IMG/VR virus record: IMGVR_UViG_3300009079_000044
Location: 1-40,322 of that record
DNA from: a virus
DNA: 40,322 nucleotides
Direction: 5' to 3' (one strand)
Numbering within the stretch: the stretch's first letter is position 1; every line of letters begins with the position of its first letter. This document shows positions 4,969 to 36,800 of the stretch, in pieces. Both the position numbers and the translations under genes were made by a program. Under the pieces are notes generated by a model. It was not told the origin of the DNA. It made no database searches and was given only the letters and a program-made list of their open reading frames with translations.

Positions 4969-5011
4969 ATTATAGGGCATCCAGCAGGGGATTCTGAGGG
5001 TCTTGTGCCAG
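4969..5011 (-). promoter_or_regulatory. Promoter/stem-loop cassette C3, inside the end of the DNA methylase gene
   Basis: CTGGCACAAG box ending at 5011 and TGCCC-TATAAT with -10 at 4969-4974, 37 nt from box to -10. The methylase gene's last residues LAQDPQNPLLDAL and its TAA stop are this cassette. It differs from cassette C4 at about three of 43 positions. Confidence 0.65.
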
Positions 5012-5857
5012 TTCCCAGTCTGCACACCGCTTGGTTGCGATTTCTGTATAGTGTTCACTAAGATCTATACCCACAAAGTTTCTATTTTCCCGAATGGCGG
5101 CAACTCCTGTGCTGCCACTACCAACGAACGGGTCAAGTACCGTAGAATTGATAGGAGAATAGATCTTGATAAGATACGCCATCAAATCTACTGGTTTGAC
5201 TGTAGGATGGTCATTGTCGGATCCTTTTTCTTTTCTTGTGGCACGAGGAGCATAAAAATATTTTTGATGTTCTGGTAATACGTCACCAATGATATTAGAA
5301 GGATATCTACCAGCAGGGTTAGCATCTACAGTTCCAAACTCTTCTTGTGTTCCTGTAGTTTTTCCATCACGTCCAAATGTACGACGTTTAGCACCATCTT
5401 TTACCCAACCTGTTGGTGGTTTCTTATCCCATGGCACTCTAGTATTTTCAGTATCAATTAAACCACATCCCCACTTCTCAAAATTATTTTGAAGTGTTCC
5501 TTGATATGGTTTTTGTGCTACTACTATTGGTTCATGTGCTGGTTTTAATCTATTATGTTTGGGCATTTTAGTAGTGGTCATCCACATAATTTGATCTTTA
5601 ATTTTAAATCCAGCATCCTCTACATTACATGCCAGACGATGATAAAGTTCTGGAGAACAAAATGCTAAGCAAAAAGCACCTGGGCGAAGTGTGCGAAACA
5701 CTTCAACCCAGATGTCTACGGAAGGAACTGAATGATCCCAATGGTCCATATTCATTCCATAAGGGGGATCGGTGATACAACTATGAAAAGTATTATCTTC
5801 GTAATTAGATAACACTTCTTTAGAATCACCTAATAGAATTGAGAACGTTTTGTTCAC
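4970..5857 (-). CDS. DNA methyltransferase, DPPY class (beta-type N4/N6)
   Basis: Amino-methyltransferase using S-adenosylmethionine. The catalytic motif IV TDPPYGMNMDHW is at residues 29-40 and the SAM-binding motif I LDPFVGSGSTG at about 241-251. The order IV before I is typical of the beta class, with a target-recognition region between. The GTG start has GGGAG at an 8-nt spacing. Its 5' end overlaps the nuclease gene by 32 nt, so the two are translationally coupled like many restriction-modification pairs. The C-terminus is encoded by cassette C3. Base (N4-cytosine or N6-adenine) and recognition site cannot be read from sequence. Confidence 0.9.
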   Translation of the reverse strand: MNKTFSILLGDSKEVLSNYEDNTFHSCITDPPYGMNMDHWDHSVPSVDIWVEVFRTLRPGAFCLAFCSPELYHRLACNVEDAGFKIKDQIMWMTTTKMPKHNRLKPAHEPIVVAQKPYQGTLQNNFEKWGCGLIDTENTRVPWDKKPPTGWVKDGAKRRTFGRDGKTTGTQEEFGTVDANPAGRYPSNIIGDVLPEHQKYFYAPRATRKEKGSDNDHPTVKPVDLMAYLIKIYSPINSTVLDPFVGSGSTGVAAIRENRNFVGIDLSEHYTEIATKRCADWELAQDPQNPLLDAL

Positions 5858-15795: not shown

Positions 15796-17067
15796 TCAGC
15801 GATTGATCGTGCTGATTGCCACATCCCCCTTCTGGAAGATAATGTCCATCACGTTCTGAACCTTCTGTGCCGTGCCCGTAGATGCCTTGTCAAAGGTCGG
15901 GCAAATCACCAGACCATAGGATTTGGTGTAGGAGTCCAGAGCACCTGCCACAAGGGCACCAGAGCGGATTCCAGCGGCATCCTGGGGGTGAAGACGCAGC
16001 GTCCTACCGACCGTTTGACCGATACCTACGATGTCCATAGAACGCATAAACACAACCGCTTCCAGAGCAGAGATGTTAATGCCTTCTGCCAGAATGCTGT
16101 GATGAAGAACCACAAACTTCTTGTCGGCATCCTTACCCCACTCGTTGAGAGTATCAAAGAATACCTCACGATTGACTTTATCACCATCAATAAAGGCACC
16201 GTGCTTGGAAGTAATGTGCATCACAGAATAACCTTCCTCTGCCAGTTGTTCGGCAAAGTCAGTTTCGGAAAGCAGACCAATAATGTGCTTGGTTGCCTTG
16301 GCACAAATCAGGACTTTATCAACAGAGTTTGAGTAATCAACCAAACCCTCAGTTACAGTAACCTGCTTGGGATTAAGGATAAGGTCAAGTAGATACTCAC
16401 AGTCCCGTTGAGCGATGTCCTCACCCTTGACCGAAAGTCGCATCTGCTTGCAAATCACCTTAGGAGGAATGATGTAACCGTTCTGAACCAATTGAGGAGC
16501 AGGAACCTTAGCGATGATGCTACCGTAGACCTCAGTATCATTCATACCTGCCTTACCAATTACATTGCTGTATTTTGGGGTGGCAGTAAAGAAGAAACAA
16601 CGCTCTGCCTCTGCACTGAAATACTCTACCGCAGGGAAGAAGTGACGTTGAATAGAATTATGTGCCTCATCCATATAAATTGTATCAACGGTGATTTCTG
16701 CCCTTTGTAGTTGCTGTAGAGAGTTATAGGTGGTGAAGATAAGTTTGTGACCTTGTGCCTGCTCGTACCAATTACGAATTACATTAGGTTTCGTGGTGCT
16801 AAAATGCCTAGTTTCTCCGGAGTGAATATGAAGAACATTAGCATTAGTGATAAACTCAAGATACTCAGAAGACAACTGTTCAGCAAGCAAAATACGAGGA
16901 CTAACAACTACAATTGTCTTTGAGATGTTAGACTGGAATTGGCGAACAGCATCGAAAATACCTACATTAGTTTTACCGCCGCCTGTTGGCATCACGACAA
17001 TACCTTTAGAATGCTGCGAGAGAGCATCCATAGCAGTTTGTTGGTGAGGACGGAGTTGGAACATCAT
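15796..17067 (-). CDS. SF2 DEAH-box helicase
   Basis: ATP-dependent helicase of superfamily 2. Visible motifs: Q-like LRPHQQTAMDAL (about 7-18), Walker A MPTGGGKTNVG (about 27-37), motif II YMDEAHNS (about 132-139), motif III FTATPKY (about 161-167), and motif VI GQTVGRTLRLHP near residue 350. Length 423 aa suits a stand-alone helicase of the type found in cyanophages, acting on DNA during replication or recombination. It does not clearly match T4 UvsW or Dda. The start is one of two ATG codons at the very beginning, and no Shine-Dalgarno is seen. Driven by cassette C10. Confidence 0.93.
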   Translation of the reverse strand: MMFQLRPHQQTAMDALSQHSKGIVVMPTGGGKTNVGIFDAVRQFQSNISKTIVVVSPRILLAEQLSSEYLEFITNANVLHIHSGETRHFSTTKPNVIRNWYEQAQGHKLIFTTYNSLQQLQRAEITVDTIYMDEAHNSIQRHFFPAVEYFSAEAERCFFFTATPKYSNVIGKAGMNDTEVYGSIIAKVPAPQLVQNGYIIPPKVICKQMRLSVKGEDIAQRDCEYLLDLILNPKQVTVTEGLVDYSNSVDKVLICAKATKHIIGLLSETDFAEQLAEEGYSVMHITSKHGAFIDGDKVNREVFFDTLNEWGKDADKKFVVLHHSILAEGINISALEAVVFMRSMDIVGIGQTVGRTLRLHPQDAAGIRSGALVAGALDSYTKSYGLVICPTFDKASTGTAQKVQNVMDIIFQKGDVAISTINR

Positions 17068-17086
17068 CAATCAATTCAATACTCAT

Positions 17087-25446: not shown

Positions 25447-25992
25447 TTATTTATGTTTATTCATCCAATACTTGTTCAGAAATCCTAAAACATATTCTTC
25501 ACCGGGACATTCTTTACAGAGTTTATTTTCTACACCATTATTCCACCACTTTTTCCCAAAAGACGGATTATTTTCTCCCATAAAAACTTTACTCATTTTT
25601 TCTCTTGTTTCTTCACTTGCTTTTCTTTTCTTCGCCGCCTCACTTAATGCTTTTCGGTGTGCCTCACTTTTCTTTCTTCCTTTATGACTATCACTCAACT
25701 TCTTTTTTGTTTCTTCACTTAAAACACGACCGGCACAACCTTCCCCACCATCGGTCATATTTCTTAAAATTCCTGTTCCTAAATCTTTTCTACCTAAAAC
25801 AGCAATCATATAAATCTCGTGCTTCCTTGCTTCTTCATCGGTAAGATTTTTCTTTAAGAATATTCTTCTTTCTTCTTTTACTGGAAGATGAATAGTGTGT
25901 AAGGTATTATTAATTCTACCTGCTTTACCTTTACCGATATAATATGGTGTTCCATCTTCACGCAAATATGCATAAGTGTAATAATTATTCAT
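25447..25992 (-). CDS. GIY-YIG homing endonuclease with NUMOD3 repeats (intact)
   Basis: MNNYYTYAYLREDGTPYYIG and GKGKAGR form the catalytic start, with KHEIYMIAVLG carrying the glutamate. NUMOD3-like repeats follow (GRVLSEETKKKLSDSHKG, KKSEAHRKALSEAAKK, KASEETREKMSKVFMG) and then a C-terminal GKKWWNNGVENKLCKECPG shared with the frameshifted copy near 9715-10315. 181 aa. Inserted between the giant fibre gene and the tRNA island; its stop codon lies within the fibre gene's late promoter. Its own late promoter sits within an inverted repeat. Confidence 0.92.
   Translation of the reverse strand: MNNYYTYAYLREDGTPYYIGKGKAGRINNTLHTIHLPVKEERRIFLKKNLTDEEARKHEIYMIAVLGRKDLGTGILRNMTDGGEGCAGRVLSEETKKKLSDSHKGRKKSEAHRKALSEAAKKRKASEETREKMSKVFMGENNPSFGKKWWNNGVENKLCKECPGEEYVLGFLNKYWMNKHK
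25448..25455 (-). promoter_or_regulatory. Late promoter core CATAAATA for the giant fibre gene
   Basis: About 29 nt before the fibre ATG, made of the last codons and stop of the GIY-YIG gene (AAA CAT AAA TAA). Confidence 0.65.
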
Positions 25993-26427: not shown

Positions 26428-26509
26428 TACCCCCTGCCGGGTACGATCCGGCACGACTAAAGTCAACGGATTTTAAATCCGTAGCGGCTACCAATTACGC
26501 CAAGGGGGC
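26428..26509 (-). tRNA. tRNA-Leu (anticodon UAA)
   Basis: 82-nt class II tRNA. Acceptor GCCCCCT pairs with AGGGGGT (closing G.U), discriminator A, no encoded CCA. Anticodon stem ACGGA/TCCGT around loop TTTAAAA gives UAA. Long variable arm GACT-TT-AGTC as required for leucine. T stem GCCGG/CCGGC with loop ATCGTAC, unusual at positions 54 (A) and 58 (U). Reads UUA, a common codon in this AT-rich genome. Confidence 0.9.
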
Positions 26510-26552
26510 TTGTGTATGAGACCATTATAACTCAAAGAGTCATTATGGTCAA

Positions 26553-26625
26553 TAGGCAGAGAGGGCCATGATCCCTCATAACTCCGTTATAAGCAGAGCA
26601 TTTTGACCAATTAAATTATCCGCCC
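26553..26625 (-). tRNA. tRNA-Ile (anticodon UAU)
   Basis: 73-nt tRNA. Acceptor GGGCGGA pairs with TCTGCCT (G.U pairs at two positions), discriminator A. D stem ATTT/AAAT, anticodon stem CTCTG/CGGAG around CTTATAA gives UAU. T stem GAGGG/CCCTC with loop ATCATGG, also A54 and U58. UAU reads AUA, a codon rare in many hosts but useful to an AT-rich phage. Confidence 0.88.
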
Positions 26626-26627
26626 AT

Positions 26628-30024: not shown

Positions 30025-31364
30025 TTTCTTTCTTTGTTATTGACTCCAAAAGTATCTCTCAGCAATTTCATCGAAGTATAGGAATTATTCACATCAAAAT
30101 GGTGGCAAAGTTCCTTAATCATATATAGACCACTTGTTTCGGAATCGTGTTCGCTTTTATCCGATTTACTATTATTTGGAAATAGGCACTCGATGACATC
30201 ACCCGCTCTTAAATCAGTATTTACGGGAATCATTACACTCAAAGCTTGTGTAAAAAGAATATTGTATCTCATTAAAGATTGAGATTGATATAATGATGGA
30301 TCTGCGTTTTCAGATTTTGATACTTCTTTTTCTACGGTTCCAATATCCAGAATGGCAGTAATAATTCTTGAAGGGGCATCTCCGAGAGATAAATCAGATC
30401 CCTCAGATATTTTAGGAAGTTGTAAATCTGTCCCACCAAGGTTATTAGTTTTATTGGAATAATTTTGTAATTTAAACAGTCCTTCTTTAGGATCAGTAAA
30501 TGTAAAATCTAAAGGATTGAAAAATGTTCTTTGACTTGCATAAGTACCAAGACGAAGTTTCTCAATTAAATTTTGATTTTTCTGTGTACTATAATTCAGA
30601 ATCTTAAATTCATTATCAACTTTTTCATTATTATCATTATAAGAAACTGTCGTTGGACTATAAACATATGTTGCCTTTGATTTTTGAGAGATTAAATTAT
30701 CAATTGCACGAAACTGAAATCCATCCTGAGTTTGATAAAATACAAATCCGGCAGTTGCATTTCCAGAAACTACTGGAACACCTTTAGATGCCAACCAAAT
30801 TAATGTTGTGAAAGGTTTTCTCATATTTCCAATAAATCCATACTTATTGGAAGTCTCATCAATTGTTCCGATACTATCAGTTTTTAGAACATCTGTTAAT
30901 ATTTTACGAACCGACTCACTAATCTTTGATGATGTTGAATATTTTCTTGATACTCGTGAAGTTTCATTCGTGATTGCCTCTCTTGAAACTAGATTTAGAG
31001 TGAAACTTTCTTGCTGTGCTTCTGAGATTACATCGGTAATACTAGAAACATAAAGATATTTTTTTGGATTATTTGAGAAGTCCAAAGATTCTCTTCCCGG
31101 AACATTTCCGGCAATTTTCATTGAGAGCCTTTCACCACCACGAAGAGGAAGACCATTATAAATTGATTGCTTTTCTCCGTCTTGGTCCTTAAAAGATGTA
31201 ATGGTATTTCCAGTATTAACCACCTTGACTCTGGCAGTAATTGTTGGGGAGAAAATATCCTCAAAATATTCGAGTGCGATTGTTCCATTTTTAATATCAA
31301 CCGTCCTTTTCTGGTCGTTTGATTCAAGAACTAATTCTTCATATATGGATTTACTAATTGACAT
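30021..31364 (-). CDS. 27: Baseplate hub protein, gp27-like (447 aa)
   Basis: Between the lysozyme-domain protein and gp5. The sequence (IALEYFEDIFSPTITARVKV, LSMKIAGNVPGRESLDFSNN, LYVSSITDVISEAQQESFTL) has the beta-rich pattern of gp27/Mu gp44-type hub proteins that hold gp5 in the tail tube. The C-terminal VMIPVNTDLRAGDVIECLFP and SGLYMIKELCHHFD fit that family. T4 gp27 is 391 aa, so this is a little longer. The call rests on position and general pattern. Confidence 0.7.
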   Translation of the reverse strand: MSISKSIYEELVLESNDQKRTVDIKNGTIALEYFEDIFSPTITARVKVVNTGNTITSFKDQDGEKQSIYNGLPLRGGERLSMKIAGNVPGRESLDFSNNPKKYLYVSSITDVISEAQQESFTLNLVSREAITNETSRVSRKYSTSSKISESVRKILTDVLKTDSIGTIDETSNKYGFIGNMRKPFTTLIWLASKGVPVVSGNATAGFVFYQTQDGFQFRAIDNLISQKSKATYVYSPTTVSYNDNNEKVDNEFKILNYSTQKNQNLIEKLRLGTYASQRTFFNPLDFTFTDPKEGLFKLQNYSNKTNNLGGTDLQLPKISEGSDLSLGDAPSRIITAILDIGTVEKEVSKSENADPSLYQSQSLMRYNILFTQALSVMIPVNTDLRAGDVIECLFPNNSKSDKSEHDSETSGLYMIKELCHHFDVNNSYTSMKLLRDTFGVNNKERK

Positions 31365-33325
31365 TATAGGTAAGCGAGGTCGAGTAGAAGTTTATTTTTT
31401 ATAAAATTATTTAACAAGGCAAAATCACTTATTGGTGAAGACCCTCCACCAGAAGAACCTCCACCACCAGAAGACATCATTTGTTGTGCCGGTGATGAAG
31501 GATTTTGAGAAACAATCACGGTTGGTCCGGTTCTCTCTTGTGCTAGTGATTGACTTATTTGTGGATTTTGTGGAGTACCGGTTGGTGTTATTTGTGCTGG
31601 TGTTGGGGGTTTTGCTTGTGGTGTTGCTGATTGAGATGCTAGTTGTGCCCGTGGTGATGCTCCCGAAACATTACTTGCAGTAGATCCCGCTGCTCCGTGA
31701 GCTAGCGTTACGCCGCCACTACCAAGAACTTCAGCTTCTCTACCATATCCACTTCCACTAGATAGAGACGATACTTTTCCTACTGCAAGAGGAAAAGCAA
31801 TTTTAGATCCAGGCAAACCAGCAATAGTTGGTCCAACATTTGGATTTATTTCTTGAAGATCTATTCCACCCTGAGTTCTTCCTTTTTTACTGTGAGCTTT
31901 TTGCTCACGTAGAATCATTGATTTTATTTGAGAATCTGAAGCGCCAGCAAGAAGATCTTCTTTGATATTGCCAAAATGAATCCTAGAACCTCTAGCCAAC
32001 ATTGCTTTAACAGCAGCAAAAGCAACATCCCTAGCTTTTTTATAACCATCTTCAGTCATATTTGGTGGGCTTAAATGGAAATGAACGCCATAACGTCCCT
32101 GATCTTCTTTACCATCTCCAGAAGCACCTTGAAGAAAACCACCAGCACCAGTTTGTGGTATTAATGATGTAGTTCCTGTTGATACTGGTCTTGATGGTGC
32201 AGATGATTGTTGAGATGCTTGTGATTGAGAACTTCCAGGTTTGAATGATTTAATAAAAGCATTATGTGTTTTTCTCCTATCAGCATAAACTCTTGGATCC
32301 GGATTCTCCCACTGTATCATAAAATCATCTGCTGCTTGTTCCGGAGAACTAAACTGTTTTCTTAAATATAACGGAGTATTCGGGTCACTCTTTATTGCAA
32401 AATCAATCTGCCCTTTCCAGTTAGTTTTATAATCAGGAACTGCTTTTAAAAATGCTTGTTTTCGGCTAGGAAATGTATATTGAAATAAACCAACTCCTTG
32501 CTTACTATCACCTTTTTCTTGAGCTCCAATTTGAAAACCACTCTCTCCTTGAATATTTGCCAATATACCTAAAGCGTGTATTTCAGAAACTCCTAAACTT
32601 TTAAGATAAGAATATACTGCTTGCGAACTAACCCTTCCACCAGATGTTTCTGGACCTTGACTACCACTATAAGGTGCAGTTCGTTCATAGGCACCCTCAT
32701 TAGTATTTTCAGTTCCGAGTGGTCTGGCATCCTCTCCAGAAGCAATACCCTCACTTAATGGAGTTGTTATTAATTTGATTGCATTCTCAAAGTCAGTACC
32801 CCAATTTTCCACACTTAAATTTAGGTCATCAAAAGCAGTTTTAACTCTTCCAGAAGTATCAGAAAAATCAAATGTCATTAAATTTTGTAAAGATGCACCC
32901 AAAAGTGTTGTAAACTTAGTAAATACGGTCGTAACATTACCAACAAAGTTTCCAAGTATCTTACCCATTTGTTGAGTTCTGGCAATAAACTCTTTACCCA
33001 TCGAAATCCAAGTGGGTAGATTATTAATTATCCATCCTGCGGTCAAATAACTAAGGAATCCCACCAATCTTTCAAAAAATCCTTTGGCACTACCTGCAAT
33101 TAATCCTGCTGCTCCACGAGGTTTTGTTACAAGATTTGGTGCCTCAAGTTCATCCTCTCTCTGTTTTCTTCTTTCATTTTCTATTCTACGATTTTGTAAG
33201 ATTGTTTGCCTTTGAAATATTTCTCGTTTAACTTTTGTTCTATTGAGTAGAATAGTCTGTAACTTTCTAATCGTTTTTGTTGAACCTGTTGGAACTTTTG
33301 ATTGAAGTGGTGATGAGATTGCCAT
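31364..33325 (-). CDS. Tail structural protein with phage tail lysozyme-like domain (653 aa)
   Basis: Residues about 232-355 (YLKSLGVSEIHALGILANIQ, GESGFQIGAQEKGDSKQGVG, LFQYTFPSRKQAFLKAV) match a phage tail lysozyme/transglycosylase-like domain. ANIQGESGF carries a likely catalytic glutamate (about E261), suggesting local cell-wall opening during DNA injection. The N-terminus is basic and helical, and the region around residues 80-150 is helical and hydrophobic. A segment YGVHFHLSPPNMTEDGYK follows, and the C-terminus is Gly/Ser/Pro-rich. The start ATG is preceded by a 1-nt gap from the 577-aa gene. Confidence 0.75.
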   Translation of the reverse strand: MAISSPLQSKVPTGSTKTIRKLQTILLNRTKVKREIFQRQTILQNRRIENERRKQREDELEAPNLVTKPRGAAGLIAGSAKGFFERLVGFLSYLTAGWIINNLPTWISMGKEFIARTQQMGKILGNFVGNVTTVFTKFTTLLGASLQNLMTFDFSDTSGRVKTAFDDLNLSVENWGTDFENAIKLITTPLSEGIASGEDARPLGTENTNEGAYERTAPYSGSQGPETSGGRVSSQAVYSYLKSLGVSEIHALGILANIQGESGFQIGAQEKGDSKQGVGLFQYTFPSRKQAFLKAVPDYKTNWKGQIDFAIKSDPNTPLYLRKQFSSPEQAADDFMIQWENPDPRVYADRRKTHNAFIKSFKPGSSQSQASQQSSAPSRPVSTGTTSLIPQTGAGGFLQGASGDGKEDQGRYGVHFHLSPPNMTEDGYKKARDVAFAAVKAMLARGSRIHFGNIKEDLLAGASDSQIKSMILREQKAHSKKGRTQGGIDLQEINPNVGPTIAGLPGSKIAFPLAVGKVSSLSSGSGYGREAEVLGSGGVTLAHGAAGSTASNVSGASPRAQLASQSATPQAKPPTPAQITPTGTPQNPQISQSLAQERTGPTVIVSQNPSSPAQQMMSSGGGGSSGGGSSPISDFALLNNFIKNKLLLDLAYL

Positions 33326-33326
33326 A

Positions 33327-35060
33327 TTATATCACCACATTATAATTCAGTTGAGAGTAAAGAACATAAAAATTATCAGGATTAGAAGAACTAATCAAAG
33401 GAGTATCGGTTCCATTCGTTGGTGCCTGTGAAATAGAAGATTGTTGATTGTTACTTTGACCCGATGACATCATTACCACATTCGGTGCCGGTTCAGTAAG
33501 TTCTCCTACATTTTGAGTGGGTTTAGGAAGTGGTTGAACCTGTGCTGATGGTAGTGGTACTGCTTGGACTGTAGGTGGTTTTTCGACCAACTTCATTTCA
33601 GTCCAATCCTTGTCTGTTGATTTTGCCCATTCCTTTGCCTGCTGTTGCTGTTCATAAGTCATATTATTCCAGGCAGACTCAATTCTTCCTCTTGCCATAG
33701 AGTTATCTTTATATTTCCAAGCCATCTCAAAGTTTTTCACCATTTCGGGACTTGGTGGAGGAATTGCCGGTGTTTGTGGTTGAGATATTGGTGCTGCCTC
33801 TGATATTGGTTGAGACAACATAGAGTTTTGTGGTTGCACTGCTGCCGGTGCTGCCGCTGGTTCTTCTATTGGTCCTACTATTGTTGGTGGTGGTGTTTCT
33901 GGTTTTGGTGCTGGTTTTGGATTTCCTGCCTTAGGAGTTGTTGGTAAGACTTTTGCCGCTGGTGTTGTTGGTGGTTTTTCTGGTTCATTTGGATTTTTAC
34001 CAAAAATATTACCACCAAACATTTCTCTAATTGAATCTAGACCATATGCAAGACCAAAAGGAATTTTGAGTGCTCCGGGAGCAAGTAAAGCACCAGCGGC
34101 AAGAGCAGAGTCTGTATATTGCCCGGATGCAGCATCCATAACACCACCAACAGCAGTAAGTGCTTTTCCAGCAAAATTGGCAACTGCACCCACACCTCTT
34201 GCAATTGGATTTCCTGATGCTGGAGGTTTTACACCAGGTCCAGCAGGAGGTTTTGGACCACCAGGTTTTGGACCACCAAAAAGACCTCCCACTAATGGAG
34301 CAGCTTGAAGAGCACTTCTTAAAAGTTTTAGAGGAGCTTTGGCAAGTTTAAGTAAAATTGAACCTATTTTTCCAGTAATACCAGTAATAGTTTTGATTAC
34401 CAAATCAAATCCTATTTTGATTGCACCAATAGCAGCTACGCCAAATCCAATATGTTTAAGAACATTATCTTTAATTTCTTCTAATTTGTTTTTATTTCCT
34501 TCTGATGCTGCCTTAAGTGCTTCTATTCCTTGATTAGTCAACCATCCGGCAAATAATGCAGTTAGAGCCTCTCCTATTCTTCCAAATATATTACCAACTT
34601 TCTGCTGCAGAGCCTGAACAGGTTTTGCCAGAGCATTTGTAATTTTTTGTTCTAGTTGAGATTCTTTCCCCAGTCTAATATTTGTTTCGGCAAGTTTTCT
34701 TTCACTTTCTGCTTCTGCCGATGCCTGTTGCTTCTCTACGGCACTATCTTGCTGTATTAGATTAGAAACATTTCCAAGACCATTATTTAGAGTTGTGGTT
34801 TCTGCTCGTAAGGCATCTACTGTACCTCTAAGAGCAGAAATCTCTTGAGTTTGTTGAACATTTTGGACAGTTTGAACCTCCAAATTTCTTTCAACATTAA
34901 CTAAACTTGCCTGAGGTTGCACGGCAAGAGCACCACCTCTTCCTCCACCTCCACCAGGAATACCACCACCTCCACCGGCACCACCACTTATGACAGAACG
35001 AGAAACTGTTCTTGCCACAACATCTATAGTGGGTCCAATTGGAGATGATAGACTAGCCAT
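33327..35060 (-). CDS. Putative tape-measure protein, gp29-like (577 aa)
   Basis: A coiled-coil part (about 60-170: TVDALRAETTTLNNGLGNVS, AEAESERKLAETNIRLGKES) leads to hydrophobic helices (ALTALFAGWLTNQGIEAL, FGVAAIGAIKIGFDLVIKTI) and a long Pro-rich C-terminal part. Immediate location after the gp26/57-aa pair and a length close to T4 gp29 (590 aa) suggest the tail length determinant. It lacks a motif that would prove this. The start overlaps the 57-aa frame by 8 nt. An N-terminal Gly run (GGAGGGGGIPGGGGGRGG) is notable. Confidence 0.6.
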   Translation of the reverse strand: MASLSSPIGPTIDVVARTVSRSVISGGAGGGGGIPGGGGGRGGALAVQPQASLVNVERNLEVQTVQNVQQTQEISALRGTVDALRAETTTLNNGLGNVSNLIQQDSAVEKQQASAEAESERKLAETNIRLGKESQLEQKITNALAKPVQALQQKVGNIFGRIGEALTALFAGWLTNQGIEALKAASEGNKNKLEEIKDNVLKHIGFGVAAIGAIKIGFDLVIKTITGITGKIGSILLKLAKAPLKLLRSALQAAPLVGGLFGGPKPGGPKPPAGPGVKPPASGNPIARGVGAVANFAGKALTAVGGVMDAASGQYTDSALAAGALLAPGALKIPFGLAYGLDSIREMFGGNIFGKNPNEPEKPPTTPAAKVLPTTPKAGNPKPAPKPETPPPTIVGPIEEPAAAPAAVQPQNSMLSQPISEAAPISQPQTPAIPPPSPEMVKNFEMAWKYKDNSMARGRIESAWNNMTYEQQQQAKEWAKSTDKDWTEMKLVEKPPTVQAVPLPSAQVQPLPKPTQNVGELTEPAPNVVMMSSGQSNNQQSSISQAPTNGTDTPLISSSNPDNFYVLYSQLNYNVVI

Positions 35061-35226
35061 TCTGCTGGTTCTTTAGATTTTGCTCTTCAATATATTGAGA
35101 AAGAAGAGTAATATAAACTTCTTTTTCCCAAGGTAACATATTTTCTAACTCCGTTAATGAATATTTATGATGCTGCATTAACTGAAATGTAGTCTTATAG
35201 TATGACTCCAACGAAGTATGAGCCAT
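35053..35226 (-). CDS. Small tail-assembly-type frame (57 aa), probably made by frameshift from gp26
   Basis: Reads MAHTSLESYYKTTFQLMQHH then SLTELENMLPWEKEVYITLL, resembling the short C-terminal extensions of tail-assembly chaperones. Its own ATG has AGGA directly against it and no proper spacing. The frame lies -1 relative to gp26 and starts 3 codons after a T TTT TTC slippery site at the end of gp26, so a gp26 fusion of about 298 aa is likely. It could instead be translated independently at a low level. Confidence 0.7.
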   Translation of the reverse strand: MAHTSLESYYKTTFQLMQHHKYSLTELENMLPWEKEVYITLLSQYIEEQNLKNQQNG

Positions 35227-35228
35227 TC

Positions 35229-35948
35229 CTAGGCGAAAAAAGATGTTAATCCCTCCAGTATGACCTCACTTTCCACATCAGTATTTGGATTTTTCAATTT
35301 AATAGTATAAGAAAGTTTAGGCATCGTCTCAAAAAACTTCTCAATTTCCTTAAACTGATTAGTAGTAAGTTGTTCCAAAAACTCATTTAGTTCTTTTTTA
35401 GTCGTATCAGAAGCATTCCAAGATTCTTCTTCACTATAAATCTGCTCTACACAGGCAGAAATCATCTCAAAAGTATCATCTACACTCACAGATTCATTAT
35501 TATTAAAGTTGTTCTTAATGAACTCCTGCATAGATGGATATTTCATACGAAGAGTTAGAACATCATCAAGTTTAATATCCTTTGAATGATTTTCATCTAC
35601 ATTTACTTTAATTTCATCCAGATTGATTGAAACTGGAACTTGTGTGGTTCCATCATCGGGGCAGGTAATTAAAACATCCACCGACTCTCCAACTGACTTT
35701 CCACGGACATTCAAGAACAAATATTCAATATCAAAAGTTGATAGTTGCTCTACCTTGATTCCTTTCGTAATAATACAATTTGAAATTACGGTTTTTACCG
35801 CTTCTGCAATTTGTTTTGTATCCTCACTTTCCATCGCAATAATTAAAATCTTTTCTTCTTTAACCAGAAAAGGTCTATACTTAATATTCTTTTTTAATGA
35901 TGGAACTTCCAACTCATATGTTGGCACCGCAATTTTTGGTAATGGCAT
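35229..35948 (-). CDS. 26: Baseplate hub/tail assembly protein gp26
   Basis: MPLPKIAVPTYELEVPSLKK, NIKYRPFLVKEEKILIIAME and VEQLSTFDIEYLFLNVRGKS match the T4 baseplate protein family that includes gp26 and gp51. T4 gp26 has 208 aa; here 239. It is needed for hub assembly rather than being a large structural part. Encoded just after a CTAAATA late promoter. The last codons TCT TTT TTC GCC TAG hold a slippery heptamer leading into the 57-aa frame. The protein ends TSFFA. Confidence 0.85.
   Translation of the reverse strand: MPLPKIAVPTYELEVPSLKKNIKYRPFLVKEEKILIIAMESEDTKQIAEAVKTVISNCIITKGIKVEQLSTFDIEYLFLNVRGKSVGESVDVLITCPDDGTTQVPVSINLDEIKVNVDENHSKDIKLDDVLTLRMKYPSMQEFIKNNFNNNESVSVDDTFEMISACVEQIYSEEESWNASDTTKKELNEFLEQLTTNQFKEIEKFFETMPKLSYTIKLKNPNTDVESEVILEGLTSFFA
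35235..35241 (-). promoter_or_regulatory. Candidate programmed -1 frameshift site T TTT TTC
   Basis: The heptamer is in the correct register for slipping (TCT TTT TTC in frame). The -1 frame has no stop before the 57-aa frame: CGC CTA GGA ATG. Confidence 0.7.
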
Positions 35949-35984: not shown

Positions 35985-36800
35985 TCAATTATTTAAAATC
36001 GTAGGAAACACACTTCCTTGATTTGGAATTGTACCTCTTACTCCACTTTCACCAAGAGATTGTCCAGTTCTATAAACAACTCTTTGATTATTGCTTTGAT
36101 TATTGCTTTGATTATTATTATTGATTTGATTATTGATTTGATTATTATTATTGCCAATAATTTCATTCAAACTTAATGATTTACCTGCAATATAACGATC
36201 ATACTCAAAAGTCACCGACATCTTAAGAATATCTGATGAACTATAACTTACTGGAATTGATGACATTGCCGATGGAAATAGTCCAATAAAAGTATATTCT
36301 ATTTCTCTATTATAATCTCTATCAAACTTTGTGATTGTAGTTCTATCAGATTTATAATATTCTGGATATTGCATTCTAGAGATATAATCCTTACGATTCT
36401 GCCCTATTGGAGCAAGACTACTTCCAATTGGATTATTGGAACCACTTGCAATAAACTCCATCCAACTTTCCATAAATTTAAGAGCATTATAATTTTTATC
36501 TACATAAAATTCTAGACTGATTGGAATATATTGTCTGGTGTGTGCAAACTTCTCCGTTATACCCATAAAGTTCCCACTAACATTAGCAGTTGCCAAAGAA
36601 GTAGTTGGAAGAGATGCCGAAAAACAAAGTAATCCAGCATCTTCGGCAATAAATCTTTGACTAATTCCTTTACGAAAAAGATATGCCATTAGTGGTCCCC
36701 CAAGAGGTCCTACACCACCAAATCTTACTTCATAATGAGAAGTCTGTGCAAGATTCGTGAAGAGTGGTTTAAAGTCGGATATTCTGCGGATACTAGGCAC
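35985..36800 (-). CDS. Baseplate tail-tube initiator, gp54-like (271 aa)
   Basis: Tail tube-type protein. LAQTSHYEVRFGGVGPLGG, RFIAEDAGLLCFSASLPTTS and NFMGITEKFAHTRQYIPISL are the pattern of a cyanophage tube-initiator protein; FIGLFPSAMSSIPVSYSSSD then SVTFEYDRYIAG resembles the C-terminal part of T4 gp54/gp19. T4 gp54 has 320 aa. An Asn/Gln-rich low-complexity part (NNNNQINNQINNNNQSNNQ) near residues 218-240 is encoded by short DNA repeats. Another tube-family protein is an alternative. Transcribed from the divergent late promoter. Confidence 0.65.
   Translation of the reverse strand: MPSIRRISDFKPLFTNLAQTSHYEVRFGGVGPLGGPLMAYLFRKGISQRFIAEDAGLLCFSASLPTTSLATANVSGNFMGITEKFAHTRQYIPISLEFYVDKNYNALKFMESWMEFIASGSNNPIGSSLAPIGQNRKDYISRMQYPEYYKSDRTTITKFDRDYNREIEYTFIGLFPSAMSSIPVSYSSSDILKMSVTFEYDRYIAGKSLSLNEIIGNNNNQINNQINNNNQSNNQSNNQRVVYRTGQSLGESGVRGTIPNQGSVFPTILNN
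36090..36152. repeat. Short tandem repeats encoding an Asn/Gln tract
   Basis: Alternating TTTGATTATTG(C) and TTATTATTATTG units. They encode the low-complexity part of the gp54-like protein on the minus strand. Confidence 0.8.

Follow-up and report, generated by a model that had tools for sequence, protein, structure and literature searches.

A probable programmed -1 ribosomal frameshift joins gp26 to a gp51-like frame in T4-like cyanophages and their relatives

Results

Organization of the gp26 locus

The stretch of DNA analysed in this study (the window, 40,322 nt) covers positions 1 to 40,322 of IMG/VR record IMGVR_UViG_3300009079_000044, an uncultivated virus whose gp26 shares 78% identity with gp26 of Synechococcus phage S-SRM01. 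The locus has the gene order tail tube, gp26, 51 and a long ORF presumed to encode the tape measure protein, with the following features:

35985-36800, minus strand: tail tube protein gene, upstream of gp26 (PF23849 Phage_TTP_2, phrog_45)
35229-35948, minus strand: gp26 homologue, 239 aa, the predicted short product (TAC-N or G-like; PF12322 T4_baseplate, phrog_150 baseplate hub)
35252-35256, minus strand: Shine-Dalgarno (SD)-like putative stimulator GGAGG, 10 nt 5' of the heptamer (antiSD pairing)
35235-35241, minus strand: slippery heptamer T TTT TTC, 3 nt ahead of the gp26 stop (kept as T6N in 268 of 275 junctions)
35229-35231, minus strand: TAG stop of gp26, out of register once in the -1 frame
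35053-35235, minus strand: -1 frame, predicted C-terminal extension (T-like part), 60 sense codons (35235-35056) and TAG (35055-35053)
35053-35226, minus strand: 57-aa ORF, conventionally annotated as gp51-like or hypothetical, probably no separate gene
35202-35226, minus strand: candidate stimulatory hairpin, 8 nt 3' of the heptamer (stem 35226-35220 with 35208-35202)
33327-35060, minus strand: 577-aa ORF, presumed tape measure by position and length only, downstream

The gp26 homologue matched the profile of PF12322 (the T4 gp26 family) with 246.9 bits, against a curated cut-off of 24.5. The 57-aa ORF sits one frame back from gp26, just 3' of the gp26 stop codon, and this second frame matched phrog_634 ('baseplate hub assembly catalyst', that is gp51; E 1.8e-25) and, weakly, the end of phrog_150. 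Its last 8 nt are overlapped by the 577-aa ORF. The preliminary description had placed the second frame ahead of the tape-measure gene, and the tail tube gene found upstream agrees with this location. However, the tape-measure identity of the 577-aa ORF is a purely positional assignment, since BLAST of this ORF against T4 gp29 and the KVP40 equivalent gave no match; its positional equivalent in phiN3 showed a weak match to tape-measure families (3.5e-5). The presumed tape measure gene is directly followed by a gene for a 653-aa protein (31364-33325, minus strand) that carries a phage tail lysozyme domain (PF18013) and weakly resembles the tape-measure family phrog_9570, and for which BLAST against the KVP40 equivalent likewise gave no match. 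Either the 577-aa or the 653-aa ORF could encode the tape measure, or the role could be split between both.

Elsewhere in the window, tRNA-Leu (TAA) and tRNA-Ile (TAT) genes adjoin at 26428-26626 (minus strand), and a homing endonuclease-like ORF (25447-25992, minus strand) adjoins a tail fibre gene (phrog_314, phrog_655). A 424-aa ORF (15796-17070) matched only the middle of the DNA helicase family phrog_16 (268-589 of 986), and a 295-aa ORF (4970-5857, minus strand) matched DNA methyltransferase families and a weak piece of phrog_16; these two ORFs are possibly fragments or split genes.

A slippery heptamer at the end of gp26

On the minus strand the 3' end of gp26 reads CTG GAG GGA TTA ACA TCT TTT TTC GCC TAG, so that an X XXY YYZ heptamer stands in 0-frame register shortly before gp26 ends. 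The larger genes of the window comprise about 9,570 codons, and T TTT TTN occurs in slip register nowhere else in them. Following a -1 slip, translation would proceed as CGC CTA GGA ATG GCT and continue for 60 codons up to the TAG at 35055-35053, giving a predicted fused product of 298 aa (238 + 60) with the junction TSFF-RLGMAHTSLES. These results bear out the preliminary description, which had reported the heptamer in its slipping register, the passage into the 57-aa frame without a stop codon and a fusion of about 298 aa.

Conservation of the junction

A total of 275 distinct junctions were gathered from uncultivated viruses and named phages and reduced to 169 lineages (<85% identity). A T6N heptamer in slip register was identified in 268 of the 275, with carriers including Kyanoviridae, Pelagibacter phage Mosig, KVP40, AS-zj, EniLVp02, DLP6, phiN3, OLIVR5 and RL2RES. 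In 205 junctions it is TTTTTTC located 3 nt before the stop; in others TTTTTTC lies 0, 6 or 24 nt before it, and the rarer forms are TTTTTTT and, once each, TTTTTTA and TTTTTTG. The -1 frame was open through the site and for 53-69 codons past the slip in all 268 heptamer junctions, compared with at most 29 codons in the +1 frame. In 18 of the 169 lineages a -1 stop codon stands directly 5' of the heptamer, thus a slip in these lineages must occur on the heptamer itself. Among the 128 cases with a single 0-frame codon after the heptamer, the residue read in the -1 frame is Arg in 111, and the 0-frame residue overlapping this Arg varies (A, G, V, E, T, S or Q). The seven junctions without the heptamer are five T4-clade gp26 genes (GAG TTC TTT GAG), Vibrio phage K369 and the contig locus L164. 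The check that the preliminary description had proposed, conservation of the heptamer and of the -1 register in relatives, was thus carried out and did not refute the frameshift.

Putative stimulatory elements

An SD-like element was found 8-10 nt upstream of the heptamer across lineages. The mean antiSD pairing at this element was -5.85 kcal/mol versus -4.06 kcal/mol in synonymous shuffles (169 lineages), with a z of -12.7 that overstates the significance, because the shuffle and codon-usage statistics treat lineages as independent; consistency across distant phages is better evidence than such extreme values. The same lineage scan found no comparable antiSD signal further upstream. By this measure the SD-like element is kept beyond protein constraint.

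Downstream of the heptamer, the RNA at positions 5-45 had a mean folding z of -1.70 relative to shuffles, compared with -0.44 in a control region. Within the window's clade (59 distinct sequences), the column pair 21-35 of the candidate hairpin was U-A in 30 sequences, G-C in 26 and A-U in 3 and broken in none, and sliding the partner column in this alignment abolished the pairing. One side of this pair is a third base in an Ala/Ser codon region and the other side switches between Glu, Ala and Val, so that the pairing is not readily accounted for by the encoded protein. Taken alone, the 55-nt stretch of the window folded little better than its shuffles (z -1.30), therefore the support for the hairpin comes from covariation, not from energy. 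More distant clades, beyond the window's wider clade, mostly lacked these pairs. The putative stimulators are the SD-like element across lineages and the hairpin in the window's clade.

Relationship to T4 gp26 and gp51

T4 gp51 (249 aa) matched PF12322 over residues 1-201 and phrog_150 over nearly its whole length, and T4 gp26 (208 aa) ends at phrog_150 position 235. In profile comparisons, T4-type gp51 aligned with cyanophage gp26 as far as its residue 200 (E 1.5e-10) and with the second frame over its residues 208-245 (E 4.3e-7), and BLASTP indicated that T4 gp26 and gp51 are paralogous (E 2e-6). AlphaFold2 models of the window's gp26 (mean pLDDT 88.7) and of a T4-type gp51 (85.4) share the order of their elements, and gp51 has three additional helices at its C-terminus. 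As read from these alignments, T4 gp51 is the gp26 part and the 51 tail in one protein, and T4 gp26 is a short paralogue without the slip site; by the collinearity together with the models, gp51 is the natural in-frame version of the predicted slip product and T4 gp26 is the short form. The two products predicted here would thus have a common N-terminal domain, with an extra C-terminal domain in the long one, which argues for a chaperone pair of the lambda G/GT type.

Searches for structural relatives gave little: a PDB sequence search with the gp26 and gp51 profiles found no relative, the highest probability in a Foldseek search of the PDB was 0.60 for the HK97 chaperone 2OB9 (E 2.1, not significant), and the fold search with the gp51 model gave no useful match. 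T4 gp26 (L001:3803-4429) also weakly matched phrog_1140, the family of the baseplate hub distal subunit gp28 (E 9.4e-4), possibly a further distant relative.

One gene or two

The conventional annotation implies two genes, in which ribosomes stop at the gp26 TAG and reinitiate at the ATG at 35226, the product being a free gp51-like protein of 57 aa. The window and about 40% of lineages do have such an ATG, at codon 8 of the second frame or earlier, and database records annotate a separate gp51. However, the second frame has no ATG in its first 11 codons in 99 of the 169 lineages, over half of them, and no ATG, GTG or TTG in its first 12 codons in 76, and its peptide is conserved from the slip onward even in lineages lacking a start codon; ACG-2014j has no annotated gp51 at all. 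A strong SD was found at none of 69 second-frame ATGs versus 47% of gp26 starts across lineages. The preliminary description had pointed to the missing ribosome site of the 57-aa ORF; its ATG does have an antiSD score of 0, but in the window this argument is weak, since gp26 and the next gene also have no ribosome site. As a stand-alone argument it was therefore dropped, while the contrast across lineages holds. Two separate genes would also leave the invariant heptamer and the SD-like element 10 nt upstream unexplained, the hairpin would occlude the ATG, and T4 has the same segment fused to a gp26-like domain. Taken together, translation as two genes is very unlikely.

Slippage of RNA polymerase on the T6 run, by which some mRNAs, a minority, would gain or lose one base and encode the fusion, is less probable still. 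The run has six T, and seven in about 19% of lineages, but polymerase slippage usually needs runs of about 8 or more, and it gives no reason for the conserved codon register of the heptamer or for an antiSD element and a hairpin at ribosomal spacings. Least credible is the absence of any frameshift, with TTTTTTC merely encoding a Phe-Phe that is nearly invariant at the gp26 C-terminus: Phe-Phe pairs elsewhere in the same genes have T followed by TTT as the first codon in only 9 of 164 cases, so that the protein sequence fails to explain the codon choice, and T4-clade gp26 keeps its Phe-Phe as TTC TTT without a heptamer, in the very clade whose long form is encoded by a gene of its own. We consider it very probable, on the sequence comparisons, that gp26 and the 57-aa frame are one gene, read by programmed -1 ribosomal frameshifting to yield a tail assembly chaperone pair.

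Exceptions to the proposed frameshift

At locus L164 (3001-3894) a single ORF comprises both gp26 and the 51 frame (TCT TTT TGG TTA GGA ATG), due to a 2-nt deletion relative to relatives reading TTTTTTCGG. The locus is single copy on a 236-kb contig with intact neighbouring ORFs; the in-frame fusion could be a natural loss of the frameshift, or it could be an assembly error. Vibrio phage K369 (L101:2483-3400) has an open -1 frame of 58 codons from an overlapping TAATG and no slippery heptamer, and it may use coupled reinitiation.

Discussion

The signal at the gp26 junction, its conservation and register, and the homology of its two parts to T4 proteins are established here by comparison of sequences. 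From these we infer slippage, its rate and the binding steps of the chaperones, in the following scheme. Most ribosomes would terminate at the gp26 TAG and yield the 239-aa product. A ribosome would pause while GGAGG is paired to its 16S rRNA and the hairpin stands at its entry, and a minority would slip, with the two Phe tRNAs re-pairing from U UUU UUC to UUU UUU, and translate 60 more codons into the 298-aa gp26-51 fusion. The outcome would be much gp26 and some gp26-51 with a common gp26 part, a pair like lambda G and GT. By analogy with lambda G/GT (PMC5009743), both forms would attach to the tape measure protein through their gp26 part, and the 51 part may bring in components of the tail tube or hub, after which both would dissociate. 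T4 has two paralogous genes for the same two products, gene 26 for the short one and gene 51 for the long one.

T4 gp26 and gp51 are both counted among the chaperones of hub assembly; assembly requires gp51, which the particle does not contain, and the presence of gp26 in the hub is disputed (PMC3004832). The analogy to the G/GT chaperones drawn in the preliminary description is supported by the gene order and by these separate paralogous chaperones of T4.

The E. coli dnaX site, A AAA AAG, has an SD-like stimulator approximately 10 nt upstream and a hairpin downstream. The junction described here shares with it the X XXY YYZ heptamer, the upstream SD-like element with its spacing of about 10 nt and the downstream hairpin, but dnaX is a bacterial DNA polymerase gene whose shifted frame ends early and adds no domain. 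The slip site of lambda G/GT is G GGA AAG, whereas the one here is T TTT TTC, and the lambda proteins belong to another family. Lambda G/GT likewise comprises a short and a -1-shifted long product encoded after the tail tube gene and just before the tape measure gene (PMC5009743). The Vandenendeviridae phage Adele also has a -1 frameshift with a poly-T signal in a myovirus tail chaperone gene, but it belongs to an unrelated phage family and its signal is GTTTTT (PMC12846349).

According to the review of Atkins et al. (2016, PMC5009743), the long-tailed phages have conserved the G-T frameshift, 'except T4'. Vladimirov, Gautam & Davidson (2022, Virology 566:9-15, 10.1016/j.virol.2021.11.003) named T4-like tail assembly chaperone genes, proposing, according to their title, a mechanism other than frameshifting; judging from papers that cite this work, the protein families are probably the same as here, gp26 and gp51. 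As summarized in PMC10885494, some T4-like phages carry a short gene and a fused long gene in that study, and PMC12846349 refers to it for poly-T slip signals in the short chaperone (TAC-N) genes of T4-like phages. Given these two summaries, the main idea of a frameshift at this junction has probably been published already. In the literature covered, which is incomplete, we came across neither the SD-like element nor the covarying hairpin, nor the exceptions L164 and K369.

More tentatively, the G/GT-type frameshift might be ancestral to the T4 superfamily and have been lost by several routes: duplication into a short and a long gene in the T4 clade (26 and 51), in-frame fusion through the 2-nt deletion at L164, and loss of the heptamer in K369. 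The ancestral site would then have two stimulators new to the literature, an SD-like element and a clade-specific covarying hairpin.

Public records split the gene, with its downstream half annotated as free gp51 or as hypothetical, and the gene model in hundreds of cyanophage genomes is thus probably wrong. The place of T4 outside the G/GT rule can now be accounted for: the probable frameshift is kept in most of the relatives with gp26 that were examined, and in T4 it has been divided between two genes. The functions of T4 gp26 and gp51, which are poorly understood, become directly testable as the short and long forms of a chaperone.
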